A stretch of DNA of 51,617 nucleotides from Actinomycetota bacterium (GTDB lineage Bacteria > Actinomycetota > Actinomycetes > Nanopelagicales > Nanopelagicaceae), in the NCBI GenBank assembly GCA_029977785.1, contig JAPOKG010000004.1:1-51617 (forward strand), given 5' to 3'. The notes under the pieces are model-generated. The model was not told where the DNA came from, did not search any database, and was given only the letters and a program-made list of their open reading frames with translations. Positions 10,457 through 51,617 of the stretch are shown here, in pieces; position 1 is the stretch's first letter, and the number at the start of each line of letters is the position of its first letter. The translations under genes and the position numbers were made by a program.

Positions 10457-10496
10457 AAAAATCAGGGTCCGCTACATGCGGGCCCTGATTTTTTTA
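10457..10496 (+). terminator. Strong Rho-independent terminator after hupB
   Basis: ATCAGGG-T-CCGC pairs with GCGG-G-CCCTGAT (one G-U pair) around a 5-nt loop and is followed by a run of T. It is the clearest terminator in the window. Confidence 0.92.
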
Positions 10497-45820: not shown

Positions 45821-47737
45821 ATGCTGGAATCTGTCAAAGGACCTGATGATCTGCGCGGGCTTACCCCCGGACAGCTCAATGAGTTATCGGAGGAGATCCG
45901 GCAATTTCTCATCACTAAGGTCTCAAAGACAGGGGGCCATCTAGGTCCTAACTTGGGCGTAGTCGAATTAACTATTGCTCTCCATCGCATCTTTGACTCT
46001 CCAAAAGATGTCATTCTCTTCGATACAGGACATCAGTCCTACGTTCACAAAATTATTACTGGCCGCGCTGATCAGTTTGATGGGTTGCGGCAACGGGGTG
46101 GTATTGCGGGATATCCAAACCGCCGCGAGAGCGAACACGATGTTATCGAGAATTCTCATGCCTCAACTGCGCTTTCGTGGGGAGATGGAATCTCTCGCGG
46201 ATTTACCCTGACAGGTCAGACTGATCGACACGTTGTTGTCGTAGTTGGCGATGGCGCTCTTACTGGTGGAATGTCATGGGAGGCGCTCAATAACATTGCA
46301 GCTGTTGAAGATCGAAATTTGATGATTGTCGTCAACGATAATGAACGTTCGTATTCACCAACTATTGGCGGGCTAGCAACCTACCTTTCAACGCTGCGCG
46401 TTACCCAAGGTTATGAGCGTTTCTTAGATTGGGGCAAGGAGGTTCTTTCAAAGACTCCCGTTGTTGGCGCACCTATTTATGAGACTCTCCACGGCATGAA
46501 GAAGGGGATCAAAGACATCGTTGCCACGCAGGGAATGTTTGAGGATCTTGGACTTAAATATGTTGGCCCAATTGATGGACATGACATTGTCGCAATGGAG
46601 CGAGCATTCACCCAAGCAAAAGAATTTGGTGAACCAGTTCTTGTACATGTCATCACTGAAAAGGGACGTGGCCATAAGCCAGCAGTCGCTGATGAAGCGG
46701 AGAAGTTCCACGCAGTTGGCGTAGTCGATCCTGAGACAGGAACACCACTTGCCAAATCTGCTACCAGTTGGACTAGCGTCTTTGCTGACGAACTAGTTGC
46801 TGTAGGACGTGCCCGTAAAGATATTGTAGCCATCACCGCTGCGATGTTGGGACCCACTGGCCTTGATAAATTTGAGAAAGAGTTCCCAGAGCGCACTATC
46901 GATGTCGGTATCGCTGAACAACATGCTGTCACTAGCGCAGCTGGACTTGCTTTTGCTGGTTTGCATCCTGTTGTTGCCGTCTATTCCACATTCCTTAATC
47001 GTGCGTTCGATCAATTACTTCTCGATGTTGCATTGCATAAGGCTGGCGTTACCTTTGTCTTAGACCGTGCTGGAATTACTGGGGATGACGGTCCTTCACA
47101 CCACGGTATTTGGGATTTAGCGCTTACCGGAATTGTTCCAACGCTGCACGTTGCAGCACCTCGTGATGCTGCACGTCTGCGCGAAACGCTTCGCGAATCT
47201 TTAGAGATTAGCGATGCACCATCTCTTATCCGTTTCCCAAAGGGTGCGGTGCAAAGTGACATCCCTGCATTTGAAAGACGAGATGGAATAGATGTCCTCT
47301 ATCGTGGCGAGAGTGCAGATGTACTTCTCATCAGCGTGGGCTCGATGGCAGCTATTGCTGTCGAAGCTGCATCTCAGGCTTACCGCGAGGGCGTAGGAGT
47401 AACTGTGATTGATCCACGCTGGGTAAAGCCGCTTCCGCAGACCTTGGTATCAATGGCGCAGCGTTACAAGAGCGTCGTTGTCCTAGAAGATGGAATACGT
47501 CACGCAGGAATAGCTAGCTCAATCTCAGAGCTATTCCGTGAAGCAGGGCTCAATGTCGCTCTTCACAGCATCGGCGTTCCACTTGAATTTATCGAGCACT
47601 CAAAGCGCGCTGAAATCCTGGAGGACCTTGGGATTACAGCTCAGAAGATTTCACGCGATATCGTCGAGTGGAGTTCTACTGTGGAAGAGATGCAATTCCC
47701 GGCGCATGAAAACGCTGACCACAAACAGACTCGCTAA
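45821..47737 (+). CDS. dxs: 1-deoxy-D-xylulose-5-phosphate synthase
   Basis: Dxs condenses pyruvate and glyceraldehyde-3-phosphate, the first step of the MEP isoprenoid pathway. The thiamine pyrophosphate site [16 protein letters not shown] (near residue 145), the pyrimidine domain with [15 protein letters not shown] (near residue 365) and the C-terminal transketolase domain are intact. Length is 638 aa. The acnA-dxs adjacency is common in Actinobacteria. Its last 62 nt overlap the convergent fadB gene. Confidence 0.96.
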
Positions 47738-49787
47738 TTCCTTCGCGATCTAAGTACGGCAAGATTCCGCCGAGATGCATCGGCCAACCGGCGCCCATCA
47801 ACATGCAGAGATCAATTTCTGCTGGCGTTGAGACGACTCCTTCATCGAGCATCATGCGCGCTTCTTCTGCAAGTGCTTTGAGTGCACGTGCACGCACTTG
47901 CTCTGCAGTTGAAGGAGTAGTTCCTTTATGAACCAATGCGAGTGCTGCAGGGTTAGGGCCAAAGCTGCCATCTTCATTTTTGATATAGAAGGTCTTGACG
48001 CCTTCCTTTACCATTGCTTGCATCGTAGGGGAGATTCGATAGCGCGGACCAAGATTTTCGTGCAGCGTTTCCGCGACATGGAGCGCAACGCCTGGTCCAA
48101 CTAAGCCAAGAAGTTCAAATGGAGACATCGGGAATCCGATAGAGCGCATCGCGTTATCAGCAGTGGCTGGATCTGTTCCTTCATCAACGGCATCAGTAAT
48201 TTCACCCATAAAGCGAGTGAGAAGTCGATTCACGACAAAACCAGGTGCATCTTTACAGATAATCATGGTCTTCTTAAGTTCTTTACCGATATTTACAGCT
48301 GTTGCCGTTGTTGCATCATCCGTCTTTGAAGTGCGGGCAATTTCAAGAAGCGGCATGACAGCAACGGGATTGAAGAAGTGGAATCCAACAACGCGTTCTG
48401 GATGCTCTAGCCCCTCGCTCATCCGTTCAACAGAGAGTGATGAGGTATTTGTGGCCAAGATACATTCTGGTCCCACGATCTTTTCAAGTTTCTTAAAGAG
48501 TTCTTGCTTAAGAGATAGCTCTTCGAAGATGGCTTCAATGATGAAGTCACATCCTGCAAATGAGTTTTGATCTGCGCTACCGCTAACAAGGAGAGCGAGG
48601 CGATCCGCTGATTCTGCGCTCATCCGCTTCTTCTCAACTAATTTTGTGAGTTCATTGCGAACCCACGCAACGCCTTTGTCGGCGCGATCTTGGTCGATAT
48701 CAGTCATGACAACTGGACACTTGAGATTACGCACAAGAAGGAGTGCAAGTTGCGAAGCCATCAGACCGGCCCCTACAACGCCAACTCGTGCAACCTTGCG
48801 AGCAAGGGCAGGTTTTGGAGCACCCTCTACTTTTTTACGCTTCTTCTGAATTAGATTAAAGGCATAGAGAGATGCGCGTAGTGGATCTGACATTGTGAGA
48901 TCTGCCAGAGTTGCATCTTCGGCATCAAAACCCTCGCCTTTAGTATTTTTCTGGGCAGCCTTGATTAACTCAAGGGCTTTCATCGGTGAGGCGATTTCTG
49001 CGCCACCATACTTTTTCAGCGCAGCAGCGCGTCCTGCAGCAAGGGCGCTCTCCCAAGCAGGATCGTTTGAGTAATCCTTACGTTCAATCTTTGTACTTCC
49101 ACTTAGTACTGATGCAACGAAGGCGACAGATTTTTCAAGAAAATCAGCAGGTTCATAGACTGCGTCCACTACGCCAAGTGCAAGTGCCTCCTTTGCTTTC
49201 ATCATGGTGTTGTTGTTGAGTGCGTTATGGATAATTACTTGCACTGCTCGTTCTGGTCCAATTAGTTTTGGCAAGATTGTGGCCCCACCCCACCCTGGGA
49301 CAAGCCCTAAGAAAACTTCTGGAAGAGCGGTGAAGGCGGTGGTTGCTAAGGTGCGATAGTTGCAGTGAAGTCCAACTTCTAGCCCTCCACCTAGGGCAAG
49401 TCCATTGATGAAAGCGAAGGTTGGAATTCCGATTTCATCAAGACGTCTAAAGACATCATGTCCAAGTTTTCCAATTGCGAGAGCTTGTTCGCGCTTGGCT
49501 AAATAGGAGAGAGCTGATAAGTCAGCACCAGCTGCAAAGATAAAGGGTTTTCCAGTAATTGCGATTGCTGCCGGTTTACGGGAAGCCGCATCTGTAATTG
49601 CTGCATCGAGGGCCGCAACAGATTGTGGCCCAAAGGTATTTGGACGGGTGTGATCTAGTCCGTTATCGAGAGTGATGAGAGCAAGTGAGCCCTTGCCTCC
49701 AAAAGGAGTCAGATCGACATCGCGTACAAGTGCGTGAGTGATTACTTCTTCAGGAGCGCCATCTGGAAGTGTGATTGCAGTCGTCAT
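47676..49787 (-). CDS. fadB: FadB-like trifunctional beta-oxidation enzyme alpha subunit
   Basis: The N-terminal enoyl-CoA hydratase domain has [12 protein letters not shown] near residue 80. The 3-hydroxyacyl-CoA dehydrogenase NAD domain follows ([16 protein letters not shown], near residue 335), then a C-terminal dehydrogenase domain with [18 protein letters not shown]. Length is 703 aa from ATG 49787; frames extending to 49856 lie inside the thiolase gene. The ATG overlaps the thiolase stop by 1 nt (TAATG). With the thiolase it can complete a beta-oxidation cycle. The C-terminus overlaps dxs by 62 nt. Confidence 0.92.
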
Positions 49788-50986
49788 TACTTCTTTCCTC
49801 CTGTGTAATGAGGGTTTTCCCAAATAACCGTTCCGCCCATACCGAGACCGATACACATGGTGGTAATGCCATAACGCACTTCAGGCTTCTCTTCAAAGGT
49901 ACGCGCCAAGTTAAGCATCAGGCGCACACCAGAGGAAGCTAGAGGATGGCCAACAGCGATTGCTCCACCATAAGGATTAACACGAGGATCATCATCGGCA
50001 ATTCCAAAGTAATCAAGGAAAGCTAAAACTTGTACGGCAAATGCTTCATTTACTTCAAATGCGCCAATATCTTCAATTTTCAGCCCAGCTTTTGCCAGCG
50101 CTTTAATCGTTGCCGGAACTGGTCCGTAACCCATGACTTCAGGTTCTACGCCGGCGAAGGCGAAGGTCACAAGACGCGCTTTGATTGTTAAGCCAAGTTC
50201 TTTCGCCTTATCTTCACTTGCCAGCAACGCCGCAGTTGCGCCGTCATTGAGTCCTGATGAATTTCCAGCCGTCACGCGTCCTGCGGGACGAAATGGCGTC
50301 TTAAGACCTGCCAGGCCTTCCATTGTTGTTGTAGGACGGGGACTTTCATCAACAGTTGCCACGCCCCAACCAAGCTCTGCGCTACGTGCGGCAGTGGGAA
50401 TCAAATCACGTTGTAACTTTCCATCAGCATATGCCTTAGCTGTCTTCATCTGCGAGTTATAGGCATAACGATCTGCTCGCTCTTTAGTTAAGTGCGGAAA
50501 ACGATCATGTAAGCGTTCGGCAGTTGCACCCATGGCGAGCGCATCTTGTTCGACTAACTTCTCTGCCAAGTACCGGGGATTGGGATCCATAAGCTCGCCC
50601 ATGGGATGGTTTCCCATATGTTCAACGCCACCTGCAATAGCGATATCAATTGCGCCCATCGCAATTGCACCTGCGATAGTTGTCGTTGCAGTCATTGCAC
50701 CTGCGCACCAACGATCGATTGAATAACCGGGAACGCTCTTTGGTAGTCCAGCCAAGAGCGTTGCGCTACGACCGATATTCATACCTTGATCGCCAGTTTG
50801 AGTCGCAGCAGCGATTGCAACATCTTCAATCGCATCCGGTGCAACTTTGGGGTTGCGCTCGAGGAGTCCACGCATGGCACGGACCATCAGATCATCGGCG
50901 CGCGTTCCGGCGTACATGCTGCCGGCTTTTCCGAAAGGAGTGCGAACTGCATCAACTAGAACGACTGATCGAAGAGCGTTTGACAT
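49787..50986 (-). CDS. fadA: Acetyl-CoA acyltransferase (thiolase, FadA-like)
   Basis: This 399-aa thiolase starts MSNALRSVVLVDAVRTPFGKAG. The acylated cysteine is in DRWCAGAMTA (near residue 90), followed by NEAFAVQ, GGAIAVGHPLASSG and the second catalytic cysteine in TMCIGLGMGG. It cleaves 3-ketoacyl-CoA, the last step of beta-oxidation. ATG 50986 was chosen because upstream in-frame codons to 51040 do not resemble thiolase. It is the first gene of a fadA-fadB operon. Confidence 0.92.
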   Translation of the reverse strand: MSNALRSVVLVDAVRTPFGKAGSMYAGTRADDLMVRAMRGLLERNPKVAPDAIEDVAIAAATQTGDQGMNIGRSATLLAGLPKSVPGYSIDRWCAGAMTATTTIAGAIAMGAIDIAIAGGVEHMGNHPMGELMDPNPRYLAEKLVEQDALAMGATAERLHDRFPHLTKERADRYAYNSQMKTAKAYADGKLQRDLIPTAARSAELGWGVATVDESPRPTTTMEGLAGLKTPFRPAGRVTAGNSSGLNDGATAALLASEDKAKELGLTIKARLVTFAFAGVEPEVMGYGPVPATIKALAKAGLKIEDIGAFEVNEAFAVQVLAFLDYFGIADDDPRVNPYGGAIAVGHPLASSGVRLMLNLARTFEEKPEVRYGITTMCIGLGMGGTVIWENPHYTGGKK

Positions 50987-51063
50987 AAGAAAGGGCCTCT
51001 TTCGGTAGTGATGTTTCAAGGTTACTTGCCAGTAGCCCACTTTGTCACCACCAGTAATGTGAC

Positions 51064-51093
51064 GAATTACGCAACATATTTGTTGCGTAATTC
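51064..51093. promoter_or_regulatory. 30-bp near-perfect palindrome between thiolase and ABC gene
   Basis: Arms GAATTACGCAACA and TGTTGCGTAATTC (13 bp, perfect complements) flank a 4-nt centre TATT. It lies 77 bp from the thiolase start and 57 bp from the ABC gene start, in the divergent control region. Such length and symmetry point to a TetR-type or similar dimeric operator. Confidence 0.7.
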
Positions 51094-51150
51094 CTAGCCC
51101 TCAGTTAGCCTGCTCTTACTGCGAAGCCGTATTCACATTAGGGGAGTTCA

Positions 51151-51617
51151 TTGAAGAAGTTTTTTATTGCCTTTGGAGTCATTGTTGGTGCGCTTGTGAT
51201 TGGTGGCGCAGTATTGGGTGGAATGGGTTCTGATAACGCCACTGATGAGGTTAAAGAGCTCACCATTTACTCTGGCAGGTCGGAAGAGTTTATCGCCCCA
51301 TTTTTTGACCAGTGGGAGCAAGAATCAGGTATCAAGCTCAATATCCGTTATGGCGACTCCGCCGAACTTGCGGCCCAGATTCTGGAAGAGGGGAAGAACT
51401 CACCAGCTGATCTCTTTCTATCCCAGGATGCGGGTTCACTCGGCGCAGTTTCAGCAGCTGGGCTCTTCAAGGAGCTTCCTAACTCGGTAGCAAAGCAGAT
51501 TGAGAACAAATACATCGCAGGCGATAGCACATGGGTAGGAGTTACAGGTCGCGCTCGCGTCTTTGCCTATCGCCCAGGAGCCGTGACAACACTTCCACAA
51601 TCTGTTGCCGATCTGAC
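51151..51617 (+). CDS. Iron(III)-type ABC transporter substrate-binding protein (3' end outside window)
   Basis: The frame runs off the right edge. TTG 51151 follows GGGGAG by 4 nt. The start is a basic N-terminus and a long hydrophobic segment (about residues 5-24) with no lipobox cysteine, so it is membrane-anchored or secreted. The mature part (LTIYSGRSEEFIAPFFDQWE, later ADLFLSQDAGSLGAV) matches FbpA/FutA-type ferric-iron binding proteins of the bacterial binding protein 1/Fbp family. The iron-ligand tyrosines would lie beyond the window, so the metal specificity is provisional. Confidence 0.83.
   Translation, partial: MKKFFIAFGVIVGALVIGGAVLGGMGSDNATDEVKELTIYSGRSEEFIAPFFDQWEQESGIKLNIRYGDSAELAAQILEEGKNSPADLFLSQDAGSLGAVSAAGLFKELPNSVAKQIENKYIAGDSTWVGVTGRARVFAYRPGAVTTLPQSVADL

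Follow-up and report, generated by a model that had tools for sequence, protein, structure and literature searches.

The right-hand end of the window (the whole stretch of 51,617 nucleotides that was analysed) carries two beta-oxidation genes, a divergently oriented gene for a ferric-iron binding protein and, in the control region between them, a long palindrome that is predicted here to be the operator of an iron-sulfur-cluster repressor. The features of this region are as follows.

47676–49790, minus strand: enoyl-CoA hydratase / 3-hydroxyacyl-CoA dehydrogenase gene (fadB-like), from the gene call.
49787–50986, minus strand: thiolase gene (acetyl-CoA acyltransferase, fadA-like), the divergent neighbour, with its ATG at 50986, from the gene call.
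51064–51093, no strand assigned: 30-bp perfect palindrome with 13-bp arms and a TATT centre, predicted SufR operator, from the inverted-repeat search, resampling and recurrence in relatives.
51067–51090, no strand assigned: conserved core TTACGCAAC-N6-GTTGCGTAA, from pattern scans of this genome and its relatives.
51072–51085, no strand assigned: CAAC-N6-GTTG inside the core, from the sequence and the published SufR operator consensus.
51083–51088, plus strand: predicted -35 hexamer TTGCGT within the right arm, from its spacing to TANNNT.
51106–51111, plus strand: predicted -10 hexamer TAGCCT, 17 nt past the -35, from the sequence and promoter comparison.
51151–51615, plus strand: fbp, the 5' part of a ferric-iron binding protein gene with a TTG start that leaves the window, from its translation and a relative's protein.

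The two arms of the palindrome (51064–51076 and 51081–51093) are each 13 nt long and 100% complementary, flanking a 4-nt TATT loop (51077–51080), exactly as an earlier note on this DNA had described. Ranked there among the most symmetric sites in the window, it in fact stands alone: no other pair in the window is perfect with arms of 13 nt or more and a loop of at most 20 nt, and no equivalent pair arises in 30 first-order Markov resamplings of the window. Its reported placement between beta-oxidation genes and a ferric-type binding protein gene also holds, with the thiolase on the minus strand and the 5' part of fbp on the plus strand; the counterpart of this fbp in a relative (G002) is 90% identical and matches solved ferric-iron binding proteins (best E 2e-66). 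Elsewhere in the window, at 10457–10493, an inverted repeat with 16-nt arms (94%), a 5-nt loop and a T run at its end has a terminator-like appearance.

The earlier note proposed scanning the genome for TTACGCAAC-N6-GTTGCGTAA, on the view that the company kept by the pattern would suggest the type of its regulator. In this genome (G000, 77% complete) the scan finds a single place at zero to two mismatches, and allowing three mismatches adds one more, against two matches per strand for a reversed control pattern; in relatives, the pattern keeps company with iron genes and not with fatty-acid genes. Specifically, the core, with up to two mismatches, is present in 21 of 25 genomes of the genus (G001 has a second match, at two mismatches) and in none of 16 genomes from other genera of the class. 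The four genus genomes in which no site was found are 57–83% complete; many of the genomes are incomplete MAGs, while G014 and G015 each consist of one contig, at 99% completeness. Sixteen of the 21 genus sites stand ahead of efeU (FTR1 family) and four ahead of fbp (G000, G002, G016 and G021). The remaining site, in G020, lies at a contig that ends within the leader, its promoter and first codons resembling those of the fbp of L130 and its readable side carrying lexA. The earlier note's suggestion of a regulator's site controlling iron uptake is supported by 20 of 21 sites that face an iron importer and one fbp-like leader at a contig edge.

Profile searches of 16 genus genomes detect efeU in 14 and fbp in both efeU-less genomes; G012 has an additional marginal fbp-like match (E 9e-4), its efeU match begins at profile position 37, and no promoter was read there. 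The same fadAB-side chromosomal place is seen to hold either efeU, on the fadAB strand, or fbp with ABC-type partners, divergent from fadAB (L023–L042 and 47676–51615 of the window). FecCD-type importer matches, some of them weak, are found in 7 of the 16 genus genomes, and the palindrome was not found at these importers, so not every ABC importer of that class is under the site. Three of this kind, ABC importers that come with a binding protein and lack any palindrome match, lie in L271 (G014), L272 (G013) and L273 (G010), and in L271 a cobinamide-kinase-like gene, judged by eye, follows downstream. On comparative grounds, the palindrome is a conserved DNA switch placed before iron-import genes in a group of common freshwater bacteria, and the operator shared by efeU and fbp beside fadAB is, by the same comparison, the mark of an importer exchange in which the switch was kept.

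An exact scan for the core across species genomes returned at least 119 stretches, to be compared with about 4 chance occurrences in 257 billion bases by our own arithmetic, which assumes even base composition. The 119 matches listed have exact arms by construction and include 8 genus sites already counted; the site regions of L069 and G013 are identical, as are those of L126 and G009. Among the 119 matches listed, 85 lie ahead of efeU, 22 ahead of fbp and 5 ahead of other uptake genes, which places 112 ahead of an iron-uptake gene, five of them by our own reading, with one further contig-edge case (L075). The other uptake genes are feoAB in Timonella (L133), a FecCD permease gene in Demequina (L105), an ABC ATPase gene in Arthrobacter with a general ABC-ATPase match only (L066), and genes for periplasmic-binding proteins of the siderophore/B12 class in Arthrobacter (L137) and at L078. 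The iron role of L066, L137 and L078 is assigned by family resemblance, the family of L137 and L078 also serving B12, and a neighbouring DtxR-like box is a further basis for it at L066 and L137. No adjacent iron gene was recognised at L065, L102, L121, L122, L135 and L165 among the 119 matches listed, the first five of which come, going by their titles, from other groups or are unclassified. Several further motif-bearing records are labelled Candidatus Planktophila. Five stretches labelled as Bifidobacterium breve MAGs (L085, L109, L116, L124 and L130) carry Nanopelagicales-like iron loci, and the site region of L116 is identical to that of G002; these labels look wrong.

The position of the palindrome relative to the promoter is equally constrained. 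At 104 of 107 efeU/fbp sites, TTGCGT of the right arm is followed by TANNNT at a spacing of 17 nt (75 sites) or 18 nt (29 sites), and no TANNNT at 13–16 or 19–27 nt was found among the 107. Conservation continues beyond the 18 letters searched, with a flanking A in 105 of 112 and a mirror T in 108 of 112, which extends the site to about 30 bp. Any protein seated at this site would occlude the -35 box, and repression is the natural reading of this geometry.

A looser pattern, TTACGNNAC-N6-GTTGNGNAA with at most one mismatch, was searched genome-wide in 16 genus and 9 other-genus genomes. It recurs at two places in the genus genomes, namely the importer site and the sufR promoter, where it occurs in register in all 13 genus genomes in which sufR was detected and in 5 of the 9 from other genera; the 25 genomes contain 5 matches that lie at neither place, and the reversed control yields 19. 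In this genome, the sufR promoter carries the same motif as TTAAGACAC-N6-GTTGTGAAA, one mismatch from the shared pattern and with GACAC as its inner left arm. When sufR promoters were scored against the importer consensus, 31 of 35 could be anchored (the exceptions being L198, L200, L202 and L211), with a best match of p <= 0.02 in 30 and p = 0.08 in G044, these values being relative to resampled sequence and the genus rows being related rather than independent. The sufR promoters of L204 and L209 read GAATTACGCAAC-N6-GTTGTG and are identical to importer sites through the core, whereas most sufR sites have the inner left arm GACAC instead of GCAAC, so that one protein must accept both. The sufR sites are weakly symmetric, and those of the genus adjoin a GTG, from which translation would begin without a leader. 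Their placement in the promoter is that of Streptomyces avermitilis, in which, according to passages of a Corynebacterium glutamicum paper, PMC11995493, CAAC-N6-GTTG overlaps the sufR -10 and its last G falls at the start site. Passages of two reviews (PMC8593673, PMC13421787) give the SufR operator as CAAC-N6-GTTG, the inverted repeat that the window palindrome contains at 51072–51085.

Searches for SufR-like proteins gave a match in 13 of 16 genus genomes and in every one of the nine from other genera. At 10 of the 11 genus loci that were read, a SufB-like frame adjoins the gene for this protein, and a contig end truncates the remaining locus; SufB was identified from its sequence, without a profile search. 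In this genome, the regulator gene stands beside sufB and heads the suf operon (see also L265). Three cysteines, at alignment columns 184, 197 and 225, are conserved in 32, 32 and 31 of 32 proteins, the one miss being L193, which is cut by a contig end, and L198, L200 and L202 not having been parsed into the alignment. Their spacing of 13 and 28 equals that of C203/C216/C244 of Rv1460, a protein that requires these three residues according to part of PMC6034842. Against TIGR02702 (SufR_cyano), a model named for cyanobacteria, the genus proteins score 65–77 bits relative to an equivalog cut-off of 178.8 that is reached in none of the 25 genomes; TIGR02702 is nonetheless the best family match of the G002 protein, at 75 bits over profile positions 1–205 of 208. 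These scores place the proteins outside that equivalog but leave them SufR-like, of an actinobacterial kind. No solved structure was related to SufR by sequence at E <= 0.01.

Collectively, the palindrome is probably, at roughly 0.78, the operator that lets [4Fe-4S] SufR repress iron import in times of cluster abundance. In the proposed mechanism, the regulator would be SufR, a repressor with a [4Fe-4S] cluster whose gene heads the suf operon. With Fe-S clusters in good supply, a holo-SufR dimer would occupy the -35 region of the importer promoter (fbp here, efeU in most relatives) and block RNA polymerase. A shortage of iron or clusters, or damage to clusters, would make apo-SufR leave the operator, and its release would switch on the SUF machinery and the iron importer together. 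We infer SufR binding at the importer, repression and the nature of the signal from features at the level of sequence: the conserved site at importers, its -35/-10 overlap, the in-register motif at sufR, the SufR cysteines, and the lack of any DtxR, or of any Rrf2 protein over cut-off, in the genus genomes searched. The importer palindrome, at up to two mismatches, was not found in any of the nine other-genus genomes, all of which have SufR-like proteins; SufR alone therefore does not predict the site, and the part that changed is the site rather than the protein. Counted against SufR as the reader is the second Fur-family protein encoded in the complete genomes.

DtxR/IdeR is the usual iron-uptake repressor in actinobacteria. 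It was not found in any of the 16 genus genomes and is present in all nine other-genus genomes; a test of 50 more genomes that bear the site (50 of the 119 loci listed) found it in six and not in the other 44. Scored against a TTAGGTTAGGCTAACCTAA-like sequence, which we take to be the DtxR box consensus, 107 of the 119 listed sites reach at most 11/19, which is the random level (median p 0.69). The palindrome was accordingly rejected as a DtxR box. The earlier note had offered a metal regulator as one outcome; a DtxR-type metal repressor is probably not the reader, since that family was not found in the 16 genus genomes, and the iron-sulfur-cluster repressor SufR is the probable one. Rrf2 regulators (RirA, IscR) gave no match over cut-off in the 16 genus genomes and one weak match, in G013, and a RirA/IscR-type site was rejected on this basis.

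Iron importers are classic Fur targets, and the foremost alternative, albeit an unlikely one, is that an Fe2+-sensing Fur, the second, non-Zur member of that family in the genus, uses the palindrome to repress iron import. G014 and G015 encode two Fur-family proteins each. Read by eye, one of the fur genes lies beside a ZIP-like transporter gene (Zur-like; L260, L262 and L264, thus also in G000) and the other beside a ygfZ-like gene (L261 and L263), near which no zinc gene was recognised. Against a role for this second protein, the palindrome motif does not look like a Fur box, and the five 8-kb stretches around Fur genes in G014, G015 and G000 contain best operator matches of only 14–17 of 24. 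The match of 17 (L261:1537–1566, G014) is located away from fur, where it covers the start of a thioredoxin-like gene that looks leaderless, and may be due to chance, the L263 stretch of G015 having none above 14. Fur would also leave the motif at sufR promoters unexplained, a position at which SufR binding is published for other species.

Less likely again is that some other regulator, for instance one of general iron stress, reads both the importer and the sufR promoters while SufR is not the reader at the importer. Such a regulator is allowed for by the derivation of SufR binding from motif sharing alone and by the lack of identity between sufR and importer sites; published SufR sites, however, occupy the same position in the sufR promoter, and the usual candidates, DtxR and Rrf2 proteins, were not found in the genus.

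The earlier note had left room for control of fatty-acid use, by a FadR/TetR regulator acting on fadAB, and this is highly improbable. The fadAB genes do adjoin the site in 17 of 21 genus genomes, the window included, and in the 15 efeU genomes with adjacent fadAB they lie downstream of efeU on the same strand, so that read-through into fadAB is possible there. The site is nevertheless retained at an iron importer with no fadAB alongside in G013, G016 and G021, the readable side in G020 carries lexA, and elsewhere among the actinobacteria the site stands ahead of feoAB, FecCD, binding-protein and fbp genes. With efeU or fbp ahead of it in 20 of 21 genus genomes and fadAB missing beside it in three, the site tracks the importer rather than beta-oxidation, and in the window its promoter geometry points to the iron gene; fadAB control is contradicted by these comparisons, and a FadR/TetR regulator finds no support in them. 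A transcription terminator, which the earlier note had named as a refutation, or an RNA hairpin element is just as improbable: although RNA copied from the region would form a strong hairpin (z = -4.2), no terminator-like site is called there, the site lies upstream of two divergent genes, the predicted start about 25 nt downstream would leave the hairpin outside the fbp mRNA, and the arms are letter-perfect at 18 of 21 genus sites in a scan that allowed two mismatches, the centre varying, with a motif common to the weakly symmetric sufR sites.

With SufR as the probable reader, a subset of sites points to a second input. In L066, L104, L105, L133, L137 and L172, a DtxR-box-like sequence (13–15/19) lies within about 35 nt of the palindrome; all six come from DtxR-bearing genomes and have the palindrome ahead of uptake genes, and the seventh outlier, L078, has neither a DtxR-box-like sequence nor a detected DtxR. 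The association of box proximity with DtxR presence (Fisher p = 6e-8 over 50 genomes; 5/6 at a threshold of >=14) is indicative only, because the consensus was an assumed one, the threshold of >=13/19 was chosen after the scores had been seen, and L116 and L163 also reach 13. By eye, four of five other-genus efeU promoters contain a DtxR-box-like sequence. In L241, the efeU promoter of G026, an imperfect SufR-like AATTACGGCAC...TTTGCCTAAT seems, also by eye, to lie upstream of a DtxR-box-like sequence. The adjacent boxes suggest that some actinobacteria may be under double control by DtxR and SufR, with SufR alone remaining in Nanopelagicales; if so, adjacent DtxR and SufR sites would mean that uptake genes there respond to both iron and clusters, a dual sensing so far overlooked.

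For the Nanopelagicales, a very abundant freshwater order, the evidence leans towards SufR as the present main iron regulator: an ancestral double control, with DtxR sensing Fe2+ and SufR sensing clusters, would have been reduced to SufR alone after the loss of DtxR, the operator would have been kept through the exchange of efeU and fbp, and import would be set by Fe-S status, in convergence with RirA. If SufR also governs iron import, these streamlined freshwater bacteria would set iron homeostasis by cluster status and not by free Fe2+, through a regulon that spans about two operons, and would offer a clean case of a regulator swap during genome reduction. Among the open-licence papers listed, no title or opening of an abstract states SufR control of iron uptake, prior art elsewhere being possible, and SufR and EfeU were not found together in any paper; the SufR passages that came from PMC6034842, PMC11995493, PMC10848736, PMC13421787, PMC8593673, PMC6701010 and PMC2807442 name no such control. 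Literal uses of TTACGCAAC in that literature look unrelated by title among the matches listed.

Three known systems are closest. DtxR/IdeR resembles the present case in that DtxR-box-like sequences adjoin the palindrome in six DtxR-bearing genomes, and, according to a passage of PMC6701010, sufR has been placed in a proposed DtxR network of Corynebacterium pseudotuberculosis; it differs in that the palindrome is not a DtxR box and the protein went undetected in 16 genus genomes and in 44 others that bear the site. The SufR systems of cyanobacteria, Streptomyces avermitilis, Mycobacterium tuberculosis (Rv1460) and Corynebacterium glutamicum share with the present one the regulator type, the place beside sufB, the cysteine spacing of Rv1460, the CAAC-N6-GTTG core and the location over the sufR promoter. 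Their targets, as far as the passages at hand list them, are the suf locus, cyanobacterial ftrC and four non-importer ChIP targets of Rv1460, and a passage of one review calls SufR dedicated to the suf locus (PMC8593673), whereas the most symmetric site here is at an iron importer. Rhizobial RirA is likewise described, in part of PMC5863699, as a [4Fe-4S] repressor of iron uptake and suf genes that serves in the Fur/DtxR role. RirA belongs to the Rrf2 family, however, and both its protein family and its operator differ from those of SufR, so that the likeness between the two would be one of convergence.
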